Shown here: piece after piece, positions 2,406-21,356 of the stretch
Layout of the letters: each line of letters begins with the position of its first letter
Numbering within the stretch: the first letter of the stretch is position 1
Source of the DNA: a virus
Length of the DNA: 31,104 nt
Virus record (IMG/VR): IMGVR_UViG_3300046363_000007
Coordinates: 1-31,104 of that record
Reading direction: 5' to 3' (one strand)
The notes under the pieces: generated by a model
What the model was told of the DNA's origin: nothing
The model's database searches: none
What the model saw: only the letters and a program-made list of their open reading frames with translations
Made by a program: the position numbers and the translations under genes

Positions 2406-4351
2406 TGGTAACAGTAGGATTATATATTTATATAGGCGGAATTGCTAAACGTGTTGAATTGTTTGATGATGAAAAAATTTCTATTACATCTTCAGTTCAA
2501 GACGTTTCTGATATTTCAAAATTAAGAACAGACTTCAGCCAATCTTTTACTGTACCTGCAAGTGATATAAATAATAAAGTATTTTCACATTGGTATAATA
2601 ATTCTATTGATGGTGGCTTTGACGCAAGAAAAAGAAAAGATGCCTATATTGAATTAGATACCATACCATTTAGAAAGGGTAAGATACAATTAGAAAAAGC
2701 TACTATTAAAAATGGTGTTCCTGAAAATTACACTATTACTTTCTTTGGTAGTTTGGTTTCTTTAAAAGATACATTTGCAAATAAGAAATTATTTGATTTA
2801 GATTTTAGTGATTATGATTTTACTTACACAGGTGGCGATGTAGTTGATAGAGTAAGTGGTGGTGTAACTAACGATGTTAAGTTTCCATTAATTACTTCAA
2901 ATAGGGTTTGGTCTGAAACAGGTACAACAGATAATATAACTACTTCAGGTGGTGCAATACTAACTTCTGAATTATTCCCTGCATTACGTTTAAGCAAAGT
3001 GTTTGATACTATAGAATCCAATTACGGAATTACATTTGAAGGTGACTTTTTAACTGATGAAAGGTTTACAAATGCTTTTTTATGGTTAAAGAATGCAGAA
3101 ACGTTTGTACCTAAAAGCGGATTGACAAAAATAGAATTTTCAACAAGTTCAGGATTCCCTGTTGCAAGTAGATGGTTTTTAGGTAGTACTTTAACATATA
3201 ATCAACCTGCTACATTTGCAAATTCATTTGTGGAACTAACTATTATAGCTGCTACTACAGGTATAGACTATTCAATATTGCTTTATAAAAATGGTTCATT
3301 ATTAAATACGTTCCCTGTTCCAAATAAAAACATTTCAACTAATGTATTCACACTATTAAACTTCACATCTAATTTACCTTCAAACGTTGGAAGTTATGAA
3401 TTTTATCTACAATCTGAAGCACCTTTAACATATGCAAATTCTTTAGTTGTAGCAGTTACAGGATTTAATTATGGTAACGCAAGTAAATCTTCATCTACTA
3501 CTTCAGGACTTGTAAATGTTTCTTCTTTTATGCCTGATATTAAAGTAGAAGATTTCTTTAGTGGTATTTTAAAGATGTTTAACCTGACTTGTATTAGTTA
3601 TGAGCAAAACGTTTATGAAATACAGGAATTAGAATCTTGGTATGCTGATGGTAATATAGAAGACATTACTCAATATGTTTTAAGTGACGATGTTTCTATT
3701 GACAGATTGCAATCATATAAAAAAATAAATTTCAAGTATGAAAAGTCTGAATCATTTATGAATGTGGCTTTTGCTTCAAATAACGGAACGCAATATGGTG
3801 ATTTATTAGCTGATTTAGATGCAGATGGTGGTGAATATGGTGTATCATTACCTTTTGAAAACTTGTTATTTAATAAATTAACAGGACAGAATCTTCAGGT
3901 AGGATATGCGTTAAAACAAGACTTTAAAAATTACCAAACTAAACCTGTAATACTATATGACTATAACACATTACAAACTTGTAACTTTTATTTGAAATAT
4001 GATACGACTACAACAAATGTAACTAATTACAATTGCTTTGGTCAAGATACTTTAATAGGTTCTACAAATTATAGTTTAAATTTTGGTAGTGAAATTAGTT
4101 CTTTATTATTGACACCAATAGACAATAGTTTGTATAACGTTTATTATTATAATTATTTAAGTAATATATATAATGTTAAATCAAGAAAGTACACATTTAA
4201 ATGTCAGTTCCCAATTAGTTTACTAACTAAATTAAGATTGAACGATAGGGTAATTATACGTGATACAAGGTATTTGATTGATAATATGAATTTTGATTTA
4301 ACAAGCGGTGAAGTTAGTTTAACACTAATAAACGATTTTAGAATACTATGA
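2405..4351 (+). CDS. Large tail/baseplate structural protein, possible hub
   Basis: A 648-aa protein, the second-largest product in the tail block. The N-terminus (GLYIYIGGIAKRVELFDDEK) and the segment TDFSQSFTVPAS (about residues 42-53) are features I associate with a conserved Bacteroidota phage family near the tape measure gene. The rest is beta-rich with many Asn, Thr and Tyr. The C-terminal 100 residues (RLNDRVIIRDTRYLIDNMNF) resemble the compact beta domain found at the end of tail hub proteins. A distal tail or baseplate hub role is likely but not shown by any catalytic residue. It overlaps the following 49-aa gene by 4 bases (ATGA). Confidence 0.5.
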   Translation: MVTVGLYIYIGGIAKRVELFDDEKISITSSVQDVSDISKLRTDFSQSFTVPASDINNKVFSHWYNNSIDGGFDARKRKDAYIELDTIPFRKGKIQLEKATIKNGVPENYTITFFGSLVSLKDTFANKKLFDLDFSDYDFTYTGGDVVDRVSGGVTNDVKFPLITSNRVWSETGTTDNITTSGGAILTSELFPALRLSKVFDTIESNYGITFEGDFLTDERFTNAFLWLKNAETFVPKSGLTKIEFSTSSGFPVASRWFLGSTLTYNQPATFANSFVELTIIAATTGIDYSILLYKNGSLLNTFPVPNKNISTNVFTLLNFTSNLPSNVGSYEFYLQSEAPLTYANSLVVAVTGFNYGNASKSSSTTSGLVNVSSFMPDIKVEDFFSGILKMFNLTCISYEQNVYEIQELESWYADGNIEDITQYVLSDDVSIDRLQSYKKINFKYEKSESFMNVAFASNNGTQYGDLLADLDADGGEYGVSLPFENLLFNKLTGQNLQVGYALKQDFKNYQTKPVILYDYNTLQTCNFYLKYDTTTTNVTNYNCFGQDTLIGSTNYSLNFGSEISSLLLTPIDNSLYNVYYYNYLSNIYNVKSRKYTFKCQFPISLLTKLRLNDRVIIRDTRYLIDNMNFDLTSGEVSLTLINDFRIL

Positions 4352-6456: not shown

Positions 6457-7041
6457 ATGCGAATAGTAGAATTAATAATAGACGAAAAAGAAGACTTAAG
6501 TGGTGTTGAAGCTATTTCAGTTGTAGAATTCCCTGCAATAGAAGAAAACTTTATAGCACTTAACCAACAATTACAACTTGCAAAAGTGGATGATGAAAAA
6601 CGTATCTTAATGGGTGCTGCTTTAATTCCAAACAAAAATATTTACAGACGTAATGGTGAAGATGAATATTATATTTTCTTTTCAGATGCAACTGTAAAAA
6701 AAGCAAGTGAATTATTCTTAATGAATAGCAACCAAAACAACGCTACATTAGAACACCAAAAAAAGATAAATGATTTGTCTGTAGTTGAATCTTGGATTGT
6801 AGAAGATACTGAAATGGATAAATCTAAAAAGTATGGTTTAAATGCACCAGTAGGAACTTGGATGGTTTCAATGAAAGTAAACAATGATACTATTTGGAAT
6901 GACTTTGTAAAAACAGGTAAAGTAAAAGGTTTTTCTATTGAAGGATATTTTGCAGACAAATTAGAAATGAGTTTGCAAAAAGAACAAGAAGAAGAATTGT
7001 TAACTAAAATAAAAGAAATAATTGTTAAATATAATAAATAA
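6457..7041 (+). CDS. XkdF-type phage head maturation serine protease
   Basis: A 194-aa protein matching the XkdF/prohead protease pattern. His100 lies in ATLEHQKKINDLSVVESW, and the likely nucleophile Ser160 lies in KVKGFSIEGYF; the spacing of about 60 residues and the VESWIVED segment between them are characteristic. Such proteases cleave the scaffold and sometimes the capsid N-terminus during head maturation. It precedes the scaffold-like and capsid genes, though a 60-aa gene and a minus-strand HNH gene now lie between. The start is the ATG at 6457 behind an A-rich leader (TAAATAAAAATAAA), the form common to several head genes here. Start and stop are intact. Confidence 0.85.
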   Translation: MRIVELIIDEKEDLSGVEAISVVEFPAIEENFIALNQQLQLAKVDDEKRILMGAALIPNKNIYRRNGEDEYYIFFSDATVKKASELFLMNSNQNNATLEHQKKINDLSVVESWIVEDTEMDKSKKYGLNAPVGTWMVSMKVNNDTIWNDFVKTGKVKGFSIEGYFADKLEMSLQKEQEEELLTKIKEIIVKYNK

Positions 7042-7235: not shown

Positions 7236-7266
7236 AAAGGGTAGTTATTAGCTACCCTTTTTTTTA
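7236..7266 (+). terminator. Rho-independent terminator after the 60-aa gene
   Basis: GGGTAG (7239-7244) and CTACCC (7252-7257) form a stem extended by the flanking A and T bases, with a 7-base loop, followed by eight T at 7258-7265. It sits between the convergent 60-aa gene and the HNH gene. In the minus direction the T run is short (TTTATAT), so it acts mainly on + strand transcripts. Confidence 0.8.
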
Positions 7267-7267
7267 T

Positions 7268-8008
7268 TTAATATTTAGAACTTTTTTCAAGATTGTCTTT
7301 TGCCCATAATGGTTGAAAATTGGTATAGTGATTTAACTTAACTACTTCTTCTTCAGTAGTTGCTAACGCTAAAGGTTTTATGTGGTCTAAATGCCATTTA
7401 CCATAGTTTTCAAAATTCATATCTTTAATAAATTTACTTTCTATATAATCTCGAAATTCATTTAAAGTACATCCAAGTATTTCTTCTGATTTTAATTTCT
7501 TTTTCCAATTACTTCCTTTTCTTCTTTTAAAACTATCACTAATTAAAGTTCTAACGTTTCCTTTAAATCTAAAAATATGGTCAATTCTTTTTCTATGTTT
7601 TTGTTGAATAGTATTTTTATGTGAAGAAATAGTTTTTTCGCCAATATATTTTCTACAACTTTTACAAACATTAACTACTACTTCTTTTTTAGAAAATAAT
7701 ACTTCTATATCGTTTATACATCTTTCAGTATTACAACAAACACATTGAAATATATAATAATTTTCCATTAAGTATAATCTAAATCCAAATTCAGTACCAC
7801 CTTTTTTTAAGTGCTTTTTAAACAAAGTTAAAATTTCATCTAAATATTCTTGCTTTATATGTTTAGGTATATTTATTCTGTTTTTATATTGTAAGTTTTT
7901 AAGCTTGTTCTGTTCTCTAACAAATATTTTATCATATTGATAATCCCAATCTACTTTGTTGTATAGATTATCAAGCTTTGTTAAATTTTCTTTTTTAGGT
8001 AAATACAT
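7268..8008 (-). CDS. HNH homing-type endonuclease (copy 1)
   Basis: A 246-aa protein on the minus strand, the only clear minus-strand gene in the window. It has two CxxC pairs (CVCC and CKSC) like a zinc ribbon, then a C-terminal HNH nuclease domain with NYGKWHLDHIKPLAL (the DH pair of the active site) and NHYTNFQPLWAKDN (the later Asn and ligand residues). The C-terminal 60 residues are very similar to the HNH gene at 20835. I chose ATG at 8008; an in-frame TTG at 8047 lies in a structured leader. Free-standing HNH genes of this kind cut phage DNA lacking them and spread by repair. It carries its own promoter and leader (8134-8009). Confidence 0.88.
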   Translation of the reverse strand: MYLPKKENLTKLDNLYNKVDWDYQYDKIFVREQNKLKNLQYKNRINIPKHIKQEYLDEILTLFKKHLKKGGTEFGFRLYLMENYYIFQCVCCNTERCINDIEVLFSKKEVVVNVCKSCRKYIGEKTISSHKNTIQQKHRKRIDHIFRFKGNVRTLISDSFKRRKGSNWKKKLKSEEILGCTLNEFRDYIESKFIKDMNFENYGKWHLDHIKPLALATTEEEVVKLNHYTNFQPLWAKDNLEKSSKY

Positions 8009-8012
8009 ATTT

Positions 8013-8090
8013 AAAAAATAAAAAACCCCCTCTAATAGTACCGCCAAGTAAACTAAAAGAGAGGGAATAATAATATTTTAATCTTGGCGG
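8013..8090 (-). promoter_or_regulatory. Structured leader of the HNH gene: interleaved stems and U-run
   Basis: Two inverted repeats interleave in the minus-strand transcript: CCGCCAAG (8090-8083) with CTTGGCGG (8048-8041), 8 bp, and CCCTCT (8065-8060) with AGAGGG (8033-8028), 6 bp. Loops are 17, 11 and 7 bases. This is H-type pseudoknot topology. The second stem is followed by GG and two runs of six T just before the start codon at 8008, so it could alternatively act as a terminator (attenuator). The pairing is exact; the function is inferred. Confidence 0.55.
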
Positions 8091-8101
8091 ATTTATATAT
8101 G

Positions 8102-8134
8102 CAAATATATAACAAATAACTTAAAATATAACAA
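8102..8134 (-). promoter_or_regulatory. Bacteroidota-type promoter for the HNH gene
   Basis: On the minus strand TTG (8134-8132), 22 bases, then TATATTTG (8109-8102) match the Bacteroidota -33/-7 promoter form TTG-N17-23-TANNTTTG. Transcription would start near 8096 and give a leader of about 90 bases containing the interleaved stems. It lets the inserted gene be expressed independently of the opposing late operon. Confidence 0.6.
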
Positions 8135-8194
8135 ACTTTTTTTATTTTATTATAAAGATATTAATATTAATAAATATTTTAAAAATTAATTACA

Positions 8195-8629: not shown

Positions 8630-9214
8630 ATGAGTGTAATTAATGAAATCAAAACTCTTTTGGGAATGGAAGTGAAACTTGCCCAAATGAAACTTGAAAA
8701 CGGTACGGTAATCGAAGCAGAAGCTTTTGAACCTGAAATGGCTGTTTTTATAGTTAACGAGGAAGATAGAATTGCAATGCCAGTAGGTGAATACCTTTTA
8801 GAGGACGGAATGGTTCTAAAGGTAGACGTTGAAGGTGTAATTTCTGCTATCGAAATGCCTGAAGAGGAAATGCCTTCTAATGAAGAAGAAGTAGCATCAC
8901 CTGCTGAAGAAGAAGTTGTTGTAGAAGCATCTGCTCCAGTTGCTACACCTAAAAGGATTGTAGAATCTGTTTCTAAAGAAATGTTCTTTTCTGAAATTGA
9001 AAAATTAAGAAACGAAATTGCTGAATTGAAAGGTGTTAAACTTTCTGCTGATGAAGAAGATAAAACTGATGAAGATTTAAAATCTAAAGAAGTTGAATTA
9101 AGTGTTGAACCATTAACACATTCACCTGAAGTTAAAGCTCCACAAGTTCAGAAATTTGCATCTAATCGCCAAATGACTACTCAAGATAGAGTAATGGCAA
9201 AACTTTTTAATTAA
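8630..9214 (+). CDS. Putative head scaffolding protein
   Basis: A 194-aa strongly acidic protein. The N-terminal 75 residues look like a small beta domain (LENGTVIEAEAFEPEMAVF, MPVGEYLLEDGMVLKVD); residues 77-105 are a Glu/Pro linker; then a coiled-coil helix (FFSEIEKLRNEIAELKG) and a short basic C-terminus (TTQDRVMAKLFN). Acidic, coiled-coil proteins with a basic C-terminal hook directly before the major capsid gene are typical scaffolds, which the XkdF protease would degrade. The leader TAAATAAATAAAA is shared with the capsid gene. Call rests on composition and position. Confidence 0.65.
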   Translation: MSVINEIKTLLGMEVKLAQMKLENGTVIEAEAFEPEMAVFIVNEEDRIAMPVGEYLLEDGMVLKVDVEGVISAIEMPEEEMPSNEEEVASPAEEEVVVEASAPVATPKRIVESVSKEMFFSEIEKLRNEIAELKGVKLSADEEDKTDEDLKSKEVELSVEPLTHSPEVKAPQVQKFASNRQMTTQDRVMAKLFN

Positions 9215-12982: not shown

Positions 12983-13612
12983 ATGGCTATAGTTTATTCG
13001 CATACAAGATTAGATAATAATACTATATTTTATATAGGTATTGGAAACGAATATAAAAGAGCATATTCTAAACATAGTAGAAATTCTTATTGGAATAATA
13101 TTGTTTCTAAAACAGATTATAAAGTAACCATATTATTTGAAAATTTAACTTGGGAAGAAGCTTGTAAAAAAGAAGTTGAATTAATTTCTTTATATGGTAG
13201 GAAAGATTTAAAAAAAGGATTACTTGCTAATTTAACAGATGGTGGTGATGGAGTTAAAGGTCATTCTCAAGAAACTATTGATAAAATAACTAAAGTTCAC
13301 AAAGGTAGAATTCATTCTGAAAAAGAAAAATTAAAAAGAATTAATTCAAAAAAAGGATATGTTTGTAGTATTGAAACAAAAAAGAAAATGAGTGATTCAG
13401 CAAAAGGAAAAAAATTTTCTGATGAGCATATAAAAAATCTTTCTTTATCACATAAAAACAAACATAGTGCTAATAGCATTATTACTTTAGATTTAAACAC
13501 AGGTATTTTTTTTAATAGTTTATTAAATGCTTGTGAATCACTTAATTTAAAATATAAAAACGAATACGCAAGAATGAAAAGAGGTAATAATAATAGATTT
13601 ATACTAATATAA
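12983..13612 (+). CDS. GIY-YIG homing-type endonuclease with NUMOD repeats (copy 1)
   Basis: A 209-aa protein. The GIY-YIG nuclease domain spans about 1-92: VY (4-5), YIG (17-19), Arg26, Glu64 and Asn83 are at the positions of the catalytic residues. The middle carries NUMOD3-like repeats (SQETIDKITKVHKGRIHS, SIETKKKMSDSAKGKKFS) and the end (SIITLDLNTGIFFNSLLNAC) resembles NUMOD1, both DNA-binding modules of homing endonucleases. It fills the junction between portal and connector, three bases after one stop and one base before the next start, as a clean insertion would. It is a gap-free paralogue of the gene at 17081 over the first 90 residues. Confidence 0.9.
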   Translation: MAIVYSHTRLDNNTIFYIGIGNEYKRAYSKHSRNSYWNNIVSKTDYKVTILFENLTWEEACKKEVELISLYGRKDLKKGLLANLTDGGDGVKGHSQETIDKITKVHKGRIHSEKEKLKRINSKKGYVCSIETKKKMSDSAKGKKFSDEHIKNLSLSHKNKHSANSIITLDLNTGIFFNSLLNACESLNLKYKNEYARMKRGNNNRFILI

Positions 13613-17080: not shown

Positions 17081-17812
17081 ATGGCTATTGTTTACAAACA
17101 TTATAAATTAGATACAAAAGAATTATTTTACGTTGGAATAGGCTTGAAAGAAAAAAGAGCTTATTCTAAATATTCAAGAAATAATTTATGGAAAAATATA
17201 GTTTCAAAACATAATTACTATGTTGAGATATATAAAAAAAATATATCTTACGATGAAGCTAAAAATATTGAAATAAATTTAATTGAGCAATACGGTAGAT
17301 TAGATTTAAAAACAGGTATATTATGTAATATGACTGATGGTGGTGATGGTTGCTTTAATCTATCAGAAGAATCAAAATTGTCTATTTCAAATAAATTAAA
17401 AGGAAATAAACAAACAGATGAAACTAAATTAAAAAAATCTATTTCTTGTAAAAAAGCTTGGCAAGATGAAAGTTTAAGAGAAGTACAAAGACAAAGAACT
17501 AAAGAGTTACACGATTCAGGTTTTTATTTAAAGTATAGTTCACTACCAAGTAAAAAAAAGGGATTGGCATTTGCAGGAGATAAAGAAAAATTATCTAATT
17601 CTTTAAAAGAACACTACAAAAATAATAGACCACATAATTATATTATTCTTGATAAAAGTGTTTTAAAAAATATTGAACTTGATTGTTTAAATAATTACAC
17701 AGAAAATAAAATTTCTAAAAAATACAATTTAAGCAGAAACACAATAAGAAGAATTGTTAAAGAAAATAATTTCAATCCAAAAATAAACAAAAAAAATGCA
17801 GATATCAAATAA
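17081..17812 (+). CDS. GIY-YIG homing-type endonuclease with NUMOD3 and HTH (copy 2)
   Basis: A 243-aa protein. GIY-YIG domain about 1-92: VY (4-5), YVG (17-19), Arg26, Glu64 and Asn83, the same positions without gaps as in the gene at 12983, and the shared end TDGGDG. It is followed by a NUMOD3-like repeat (SEESKLSISNKLKGNKQT) and a C-terminal helix-turn-helix (ENKISKKYNLSRNTIRRIV), so its DNA-binding tail differs from copy 1 and probably gives a different target. It sits between holin and endolysin, and its last 17 bases overlap the endolysin start. Confidence 0.88.
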   Translation: MAIVYKHYKLDTKELFYVGIGLKEKRAYSKYSRNNLWKNIVSKHNYYVEIYKKNISYDEAKNIEINLIEQYGRLDLKTGILCNMTDGGDGCFNLSEESKLSISNKLKGNKQTDETKLKKSISCKKAWQDESLREVQRQRTKELHDSGFYLKYSSLPSKKKGLAFAGDKEKLSNSLKEHYKNNRPHNYIILDKSVLKNIELDCLNNYTENKISKKYNLSRNTIRRIVKENNFNPKINKKNADIK

Positions 17813-20785: not shown

Positions 20786-20831
20786 TTTGGGCAGGTTAGA
20801 TTGGGATATCACCTGCCCTTTTATATTTTTT
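20786..20831 (+). terminator. Terminator after the SSB gene
   Basis: GGGCAGGT (20789-20796) and ACCTGCCC (20811-20818) form a perfect 8-bp stem with a 14-base loop, followed by TTTTATATTTTTTT. The HNH start codon is only four bases further on. Confidence 0.85.
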
Positions 20832-20834
20832 TAT

Positions 20835-21356
20835 ATGAAAATTTGTTCTATTTGTAAAAAAGAAAAAGATTACTTACAATTCTATAAAAATAAAAGTAAA
20901 AAAGATGGATATTCATTTGATTGTAAATTATGCAGAAAAGAATACTTTTGTAAAAGTAAAAATGTAAGAAAAGATTATTTAGAAAGGAATAAAGAAAGAA
21001 TAAAAGAATGGAGAAAAAACAATAGTAAAATCAATAAAGAAAAGAATCCTTTGTATAAACTACAATGTAATTTAAGAAGTTTGATTTCAAAATCAATAAC
21101 AAGACAAGGTTATAGAAAAACATCAAAATCAAAAGAAATACTTGGATGTGATTACATAGAGTTGAAGCAACATTTAGAAAGTAAATTTACAGAAGGAATG
21201 AATTGGGATAATTATGGAAAATGGCATATTGACCACATTTACCCATCATCATTAGCTGAAACTGAAGAAGAAATAATCAGGTTAAATCACTTTACTAATT
21301 TACAACCACTATGGGCAGAAGATAATATTAGAAAAGGAAACAAATTATGGAATTAG
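20835..21356 (+). CDS. HNH homing-type endonuclease (copy 2)
   Basis: A 173-aa protein. The N-terminus has two CxxC pairs (CSICKKEKDYLQFY and CKLC), then a basic helical linker, then the HNH domain: SKEILGCDYIELKQHLESKF, NYGKWHIDHIYPSS with the Asp-His pair, and NHFTNLQPLWAEDN. It is clearly paralogous to the minus-strand gene at 7268 over the C-terminal 60 residues. ATG at 20835 is preferred to an in-frame ATG at 20787, which lies in the terminator stem. It sits between SSB and the helicase gene, and its end overlaps the helicase start by 10 bases. Confidence 0.88.
   Translation: MKICSICKKEKDYLQFYKNKSKKDGYSFDCKLCRKEYFCKSKNVRKDYLERNKERIKEWRKNNSKINKEKNPLYKLQCNLRSLISKSITRQGYRKTSKSKEILGCDYIELKQHLESKFTEGMNWDNYGKWHIDHIYPSSLAETEEEIIRLNHFTNLQPLWAEDNIRKGNKLWN

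Follow-up and report, generated by a model that had tools for sequence, protein, structure and literature searches.

What structure does the RNA leader of the HNH endonuclease gene in IMG/VR virus record IMGVR_UViG_3300046363_000007 form, and which step of expression might it control? The record, analysed over positions 1 to 31,104 (hereafter the window, 31.1 kb), represents a Bacteroidota-type phage whose portal protein is closest to that of Nonlabens phage P12024S (35.5% identity). The gene (7271-8008, minus strand, ATG at 8008-8006) encodes a 246-aa, endonuclease VII-like protein of PHROG 1035. In its leader, a sequence-only reading had noticed two exact complementary repeats, one of 8 bp and the other CCCTCT/AGAGGG, in interleaved order, and had proposed either a pseudoknot or two competing hairpins, one of them a terminator, that could keep a toxic nuclease off until some signal. 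Both repeats are indeed present on the minus strand. Such an interleaved pair appeared in 0/5000 dinucleotide shuffles of the leader, and scanning of both strands revealed no second pair of this kind in the window.

Pairing between hairpin loop and 5' strand

The longer repeat constitutes stem S1. Its 5' strand CCGCCAAG (8090-8083) is complementary over 8 bp to its 3' strand CTTGGCGG (8048-8041), which lies within the apical loop of HP2, a terminator-like hairpin (8026-8065, minus strand); S1 thus crosses the HP2 stem. Primase genes were gathered by protein alone, and their leaders provide a set that was not selected on S1. The same architecture was found in 19 of 40 non-redundant primase upstream regions, with 14 S1 sequences; reversed and complement controls of these regions gave 0 and 1, respectively. 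Twelve of these primase leaders, chosen solely by their hairpin and promoter, were then aligned. Both partners have changed in five of nine S1 pairs, and 90.8% of cells in the whole structure are paired, compared with 34-49% when slid. For S1 itself the figure is 79%, lowered because indels misalign some S1 rows. Judged from these alignments, the loop pairing S1 is conserved by compensatory change in orthologous primase leaders.

The hairpin displays the same behaviour among closer relatives of the window leader. Across 16 aligned members, both bases have changed in nine of 12 tested HP2 pairs, and paired cells make up 96.9%, as against 42-56% when slid. A lack of compensatory changes in related leaders, named in the sequence-only reading as a point on which it could fail, was therefore not encountered, either in HP2 or, in orthologous leaders, in the crossing stem. 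Its pseudoknot is supported, with the HP2 loop pairing with the RNA 5' strand, while its competing hairpins are rejected: relatives carry a single terminator-like hairpin with a paired loop, and no alternative stems.

In the window leader, all parts lie on the minus strand. The box TATATTTG (8102-8109) is preceded at a distance of 22 nt by TTTG (about 8132-8135), so the promoter noticed earlier is confirmed; it agrees with the flavobacterial sigma-A box TAnnTTTG, which is placed at -12 to -5 (PMC9723704). RNA start is accordingly expected near 8097, 7 nt ahead of S1, whose 5' strand would begin at about +8. AAT and ATT on either side of this strand might pair weakly over 3 bp to give a first hairpin (HP1). 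An A/T-rich linker of 17 nt (L1, 8066-8082) leads to HP2. Its stem S2, formed by CCCTCTCT (8065-8058) and AGAGGGGG (8033-8026), extends the CCCTCT/AGAGGG repeat and is separated by a symmetric UU/UU internal loop from inner stem S3 (TAGT, 8055-8052, with ACTA, 8039-8036). The apical loop reads TTA-CTTGGCGG-T. HP2 ends 17 nt upstream of the ATG and is immediately followed by the U-tract TTTTTTATTTTTT (8025-8013), the attenuator-like U-run of the earlier reading. Pseudoknot-free folding of the leader gave a z-score of only -1.9, since the crossing stem goes unscored in such a fold.

An invariant subgroup and a wider family

An IMG/VR pattern scan for CCGCCAAGA...ACTTGGCGGT yielded at least 79 distinct elements among the matches listed. 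Six out-of-place ones were removed, 73 were kept and 72 folded. In nearly all listed CCGCCAAG elements, promoter-like sequence precedes S1 and HP2 folds with the S1 3' strand in its loop. By its sequence, the window leader belongs to this subgroup, in which CCGCCAAG/CTTGGCGG and the flanking A and T are invariant whereas the hairpin stems drift. The invariance is partly due to the search, which itself required that sequence. Nevertheless, when other bases were permitted at three of the eight S1 positions, no real variants were recovered (all matches of one search were chance ones), and a degenerate pattern that also permitted the unchanged base revealed no variant at one S1 pair in 28 distinct leaders. 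The S1 sequence itself thus seems to be constrained in the subgroup.

A different S1, CTACCACA/TGTGGTAG, was revealed by a weak covariance-model match in one related locus (L143). A generic scan, whose sole requirement was an exact 7-nt complement inside a hairpin loop, yielded further leaders with unrelated S1 at corresponding positions. Application of the final criteria to 185 loci gave 109 distinct leaders that have both promoter and ATG, 70 of these leaders being non-CCGCCAAG; no leader was obtained with reversed S1 and none in 105 unrelated viral loci, which had been fetched by chance pattern matches. Likewise, 20 phage records (near-whole genomes) contained 36 leaders, compared with 0 in the reversed control. 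The predicted architecture, consisting of TAnnTTTG promoter, 5' strand, A/T-rich linker, loop-paired terminator-like hairpin, U-tract and ATG, is thus widespread in Bacteroidota phages.

In most family members, the TAnnTTTG-type box lies 4-16 nt upstream of S1. Linkers span 12-41 nt, and their length does not correlate with that of the hairpin, so that a supposed link between the two was dismissed. In many variable-S1 members, the 5' strand is the loop of its own small hairpin HP1, so the two loops would kiss; mean HP1 stem score in this group is 3.97, compared with 2.32 +/- 0.13 (standard deviation) for shuffled flanks. In the CCGCCAAG group, HP1 is borderline (3.14 vs 2.80). The ATG is mostly found 10-20 nt past HP2. 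In the five positions that follow the outermost GC pair of HP2 (+1 to +5), T accounts for 80/89/93/75/84% in 169 leaders, and in 89% of leaders five or more of the first 8 nt past HP2 are T. Because T makes up about 35% upstream of the ATG in ordinary genes of these phages, and A is the base preferred in flavobacterial initiation at -3 and -12/-13 (PMC6847099), the U-tract belongs to the element.

Several records (L138, L178, L214 and others) contain several leaders, each with a different loop sequence. S1 was never repeated within any record examined, although these records were chosen by S1; such non-repetition would agree with a pressure against cross-pairing. Some leaders (in L168, L214 and L095) contain a third small hairpin within the linker, such as TTAGCC-TTAC-GGCTAA in L168. 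In L190 and L228, a tRNA-like stretch (GTCAGAG...TTCGAATCCTGTCCTGACTA) follows the leader where an open reading frame (ORF) would stand; ARAGORN called no tRNA after the leaders, these stretches included.

Proposed attenuation and its alternatives

While the predicted leader structure is well supported, we infer its function in termination from the form of the element and from one precedent. Window positions 8065-8013 comprise a GC-containing hairpin with immediate U-tract, as is typical of intrinsic terminators and attenuators. In the guanidine-IV riboswitch, a kissing loop onto a terminator hairpin gives read-through (PMC11611296, PMC9788692). We lean towards the view that the leader acts as a transcription attenuator close to the promoter, where loop pairing at an early stage interferes with the terminator. 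From sequence comparison, the transcript would start just past the TAnnTTTG promoter. The S1 5' strand, which stays perfectly complementary to the HP2 apical loop, would form a simple pseudoknot (window type) or kissing loops, and HP2 with its U-tract would present an intrinsic terminator about 10-20 nt ahead of the start codon. If HP2 works as a terminator, S1 might pair co-transcriptionally, because both of its strands emerge ahead of the HP2 3' arm. Loop pairing would then hinder closure of HP2 during passage of RNA polymerase over the U-tract, allowing read-through into the gene. How strongly the nuclease or replication gene is expressed would then depend on whatever favours or prevents loop pairing, be it polymerase speed, a protein, a ligand or another RNA.

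Several observations weigh against such attenuation. Within the CCGCCAAG subgroup, the tested S1 positions do not vary, so that S1 pairing there receives no compensatory evidence. The U-tract is weak in about 11% of family members and, in CTGGAAG-type leaders, is preceded by a short break. Loop pairing might instead stabilise the hairpin, since on paper S1 and a complete HP2 need not strictly exclude each other and the linkers of 12-41 nt could span HP2. Translational effects are possible as well, because HP2 is close to the ATG.

The last point may be taken further: the folded leader, ending just upstream of the ATG, could limit or promote loading of the 30S subunit, the U-rich stretch being a mere spacer. 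Initiation in F. johnsoniae is sensitive to structure within -20 to +20 (PMC6847099), and homing endonuclease genes of the T4 group hide their ribosome site with RNA hairpins (PMC2988022). The stems of our leaders, however, leave the start region uncovered, T predominates ahead of the ATG (0.77 near -9) although flavobacterial initiation prefers A, and some CCGCCAAG leaders have no ORF of at least 40 aa starting near HP2. We therefore regard translational control as rather unlikely. Somewhat less likely still is a riboswitch or protein-sensing leader, in which a ligand stabilises S1 in guanidine-IV-like fashion. The CCGCCAAG subgroup in particular, with its invariant S1 and flanks on drifting stems and no variant at three of eight positions, would suit such sensing, as would the gross architecture shared with guanidine-IV. 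On the other hand, S1 is free in the other leaders, which leaves no common binding site, the genes concern nucleases and replication rather than a metabolic pathway, and no Rfam riboswitch matches.

Pairing might also tie up the 5' end and stabilise phage mRNAs against decay. S1 does begin a few nt past the predicted RNA start, and a sequence-free S1 is compatible with such protection, yet not specific to it; the U-tract immediately after HP2 would be left unexplained, so we consider this improbable. HK022 put-type RNA makes RNA polymerase resistant to distant terminators. Our leaders, being structured RNA near the promoter of phage transcripts, would suit a similar processive antitermination RNA, which nevertheless seems very improbable here: no sequence-conserved contact site is present, and the window HNH gene is single and followed by its own terminator-like hairpin (7238-7265), so processive read-through is not needed.

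Compared with known systems, our leaders are most like guanidine-IV/Gd4v, in which two elements are likewise linked by loop pairing and the 3' hairpin, terminator-like here, is a Rho-independent terminator; the pairing there is reported to hinder the terminator and cause read-through. Two loop-paired hairpins are clear in variable-S1 leaders, whereas the first hairpin of the window leader has three weak pairs. Here, however, S1 varies between leaders, a conserved pocket is absent outside the CCGCCAAG subgroup, and the elements reside in Bacteroidota phages ahead of endonuclease and replication genes. Nor does the guanidine-IV covariance model match: no Rfam 15 family reached gathering threshold at the leader in the window and 11 related loci, the remaining matches being at chance level, which upholds the earlier opinion that this is no known riboswitch. 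The sole Rfam match, DUF805b RNA (39.4 bits; L214:3079-3111, minus strand), lies away from the leaders of that phage contig.

Homing endonuclease genes of the T4 group (I-TevI, segB, mobE, and seg43(25) of Aeromonas phage 25) also have leader RNA structure upstream. Their hairpins hide a Shine-Dalgarno site, although a stable hairpin just upstream of seg43(25) leaves the ribosome site uncovered (PMC2988022). In the window, HP2 ends short of the ATG and the ribosome site is not within its stem; further differences are 5'-end loop pairing, the U-tract, a separate promoter and a phylum that does not use Shine-Dalgarno sites. The T4-group leader hairpins are of similar purpose but a different device. 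H-type pseudoknot leaders are exemplified by the SAM-V riboswitch and the T4 gene 32 operator. The window type is topologically alike, with a 5' strand paired with a hairpin loop, but it shows no sequence or Rfam relation to them, has an extended hairpin with UU/UU loop and U-tract, and belongs to a family with kissing-loop members. The open-access literature searched contained no description of this motif, which would best be regarded as a loop-pairing attenuator without conserved aptamer.

It is conceivable, although we would not yet favour it, that free-sequence self-complementary loops serve generally as leader attenuators: each copy would have its own loop "address", pairing in cis would decide read-through without cross-pairing within the phage, and the device would be a common Bacteroidota-phage switch for homing endonuclease and replication genes. 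Phages would then possess a common, as yet undescribed class of regulatory RNA that works through conserved pairing instead of conserved sequence and that ordinary sequence searches therefore miss. It would also offer a testable rule for keeping both kinds of genes in step in Bacteroidota phages, which lack Shine-Dalgarno control, and a natural test system for the effect of loop pairing on intrinsic termination.

Genes behind the leaders and their hosts

Proteins encoded downstream of leaders (94 after clustering at 60% identity) include HNH_3 (19), NUMOD4 (14), GIY-YIG (9) and PHROG 1035 (8) matches; members of primase and helicase families occur as well. The comparison set, 95 other ORFs from these loci, contains one HNH_3 and one GIY-YIG match. 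Since the loci were fetched through leaders, these proportions apply to the genes behind the leaders sampled and not to leaders in nature as a whole. The idea of a leader keeping a toxic nuclease off is thus too narrow, as primases, helicases and other genes are preceded by the same leaders. It is further weakened by relatives of the window HNH protein outside the phage group: none of 16 further relatives checked has such a leader, and the idea that the leader is a property of this HNH family was rejected accordingly.

Leaders are present in isolated phages, too. In the elemo group (NC_062741; host Flavobacterium sp. BAL314), one at 4134 on the minus strand precedes an endonuclease VII gene. 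The Freya group (NC_062746; host Polaribacter) has leaders at 32550 and 36653, both on the plus strand; one precedes a gene for metal-dependent hydrolase and the other, with another S1, a gene annotated as transcriptional regulator. Flavobacteriaceae chromosomes contained one doubtful match in 0.66 Mb, without ATG and with the promoter match just 2 nt from S1, compared with 32 matches in 0.59 Mb of phage DNA. Exact CCGCCAAG search of 84,980 species retrieved a single match, in a 3.2-kb contig of a Flavobacterium metagenome-assembled genome; three other genomes gave weak model matches with no visible architecture, and the GTGGTAG type was found in 0/199 genomes. A host chromosomal element was rejected on this near-absence.

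The window contains further endonuclease-like genes. A second endonuclease VII-like HNH gene (20832-21356) has, in the region 20789-20835, a hairpin GGGCAGGT/ACCTGCCC and a T-rich tract directly before its ATG; no complementary 5' strand was found for this hairpin, which perhaps terminates the upstream gene. Two more endonuclease-like genes (12983-13612, with a NUMOD3 match, and 17081-17812) have similar N-termini and no such leader. Finally, the proteins encoded at 6457-7041 and 8630-9214 correspond to the beginning and the end of a single PHROG (24921, 349 positions). The HNH gene and two small ORFs lie between them, which gives the impression of an insertion into a split protease/scaffold gene.
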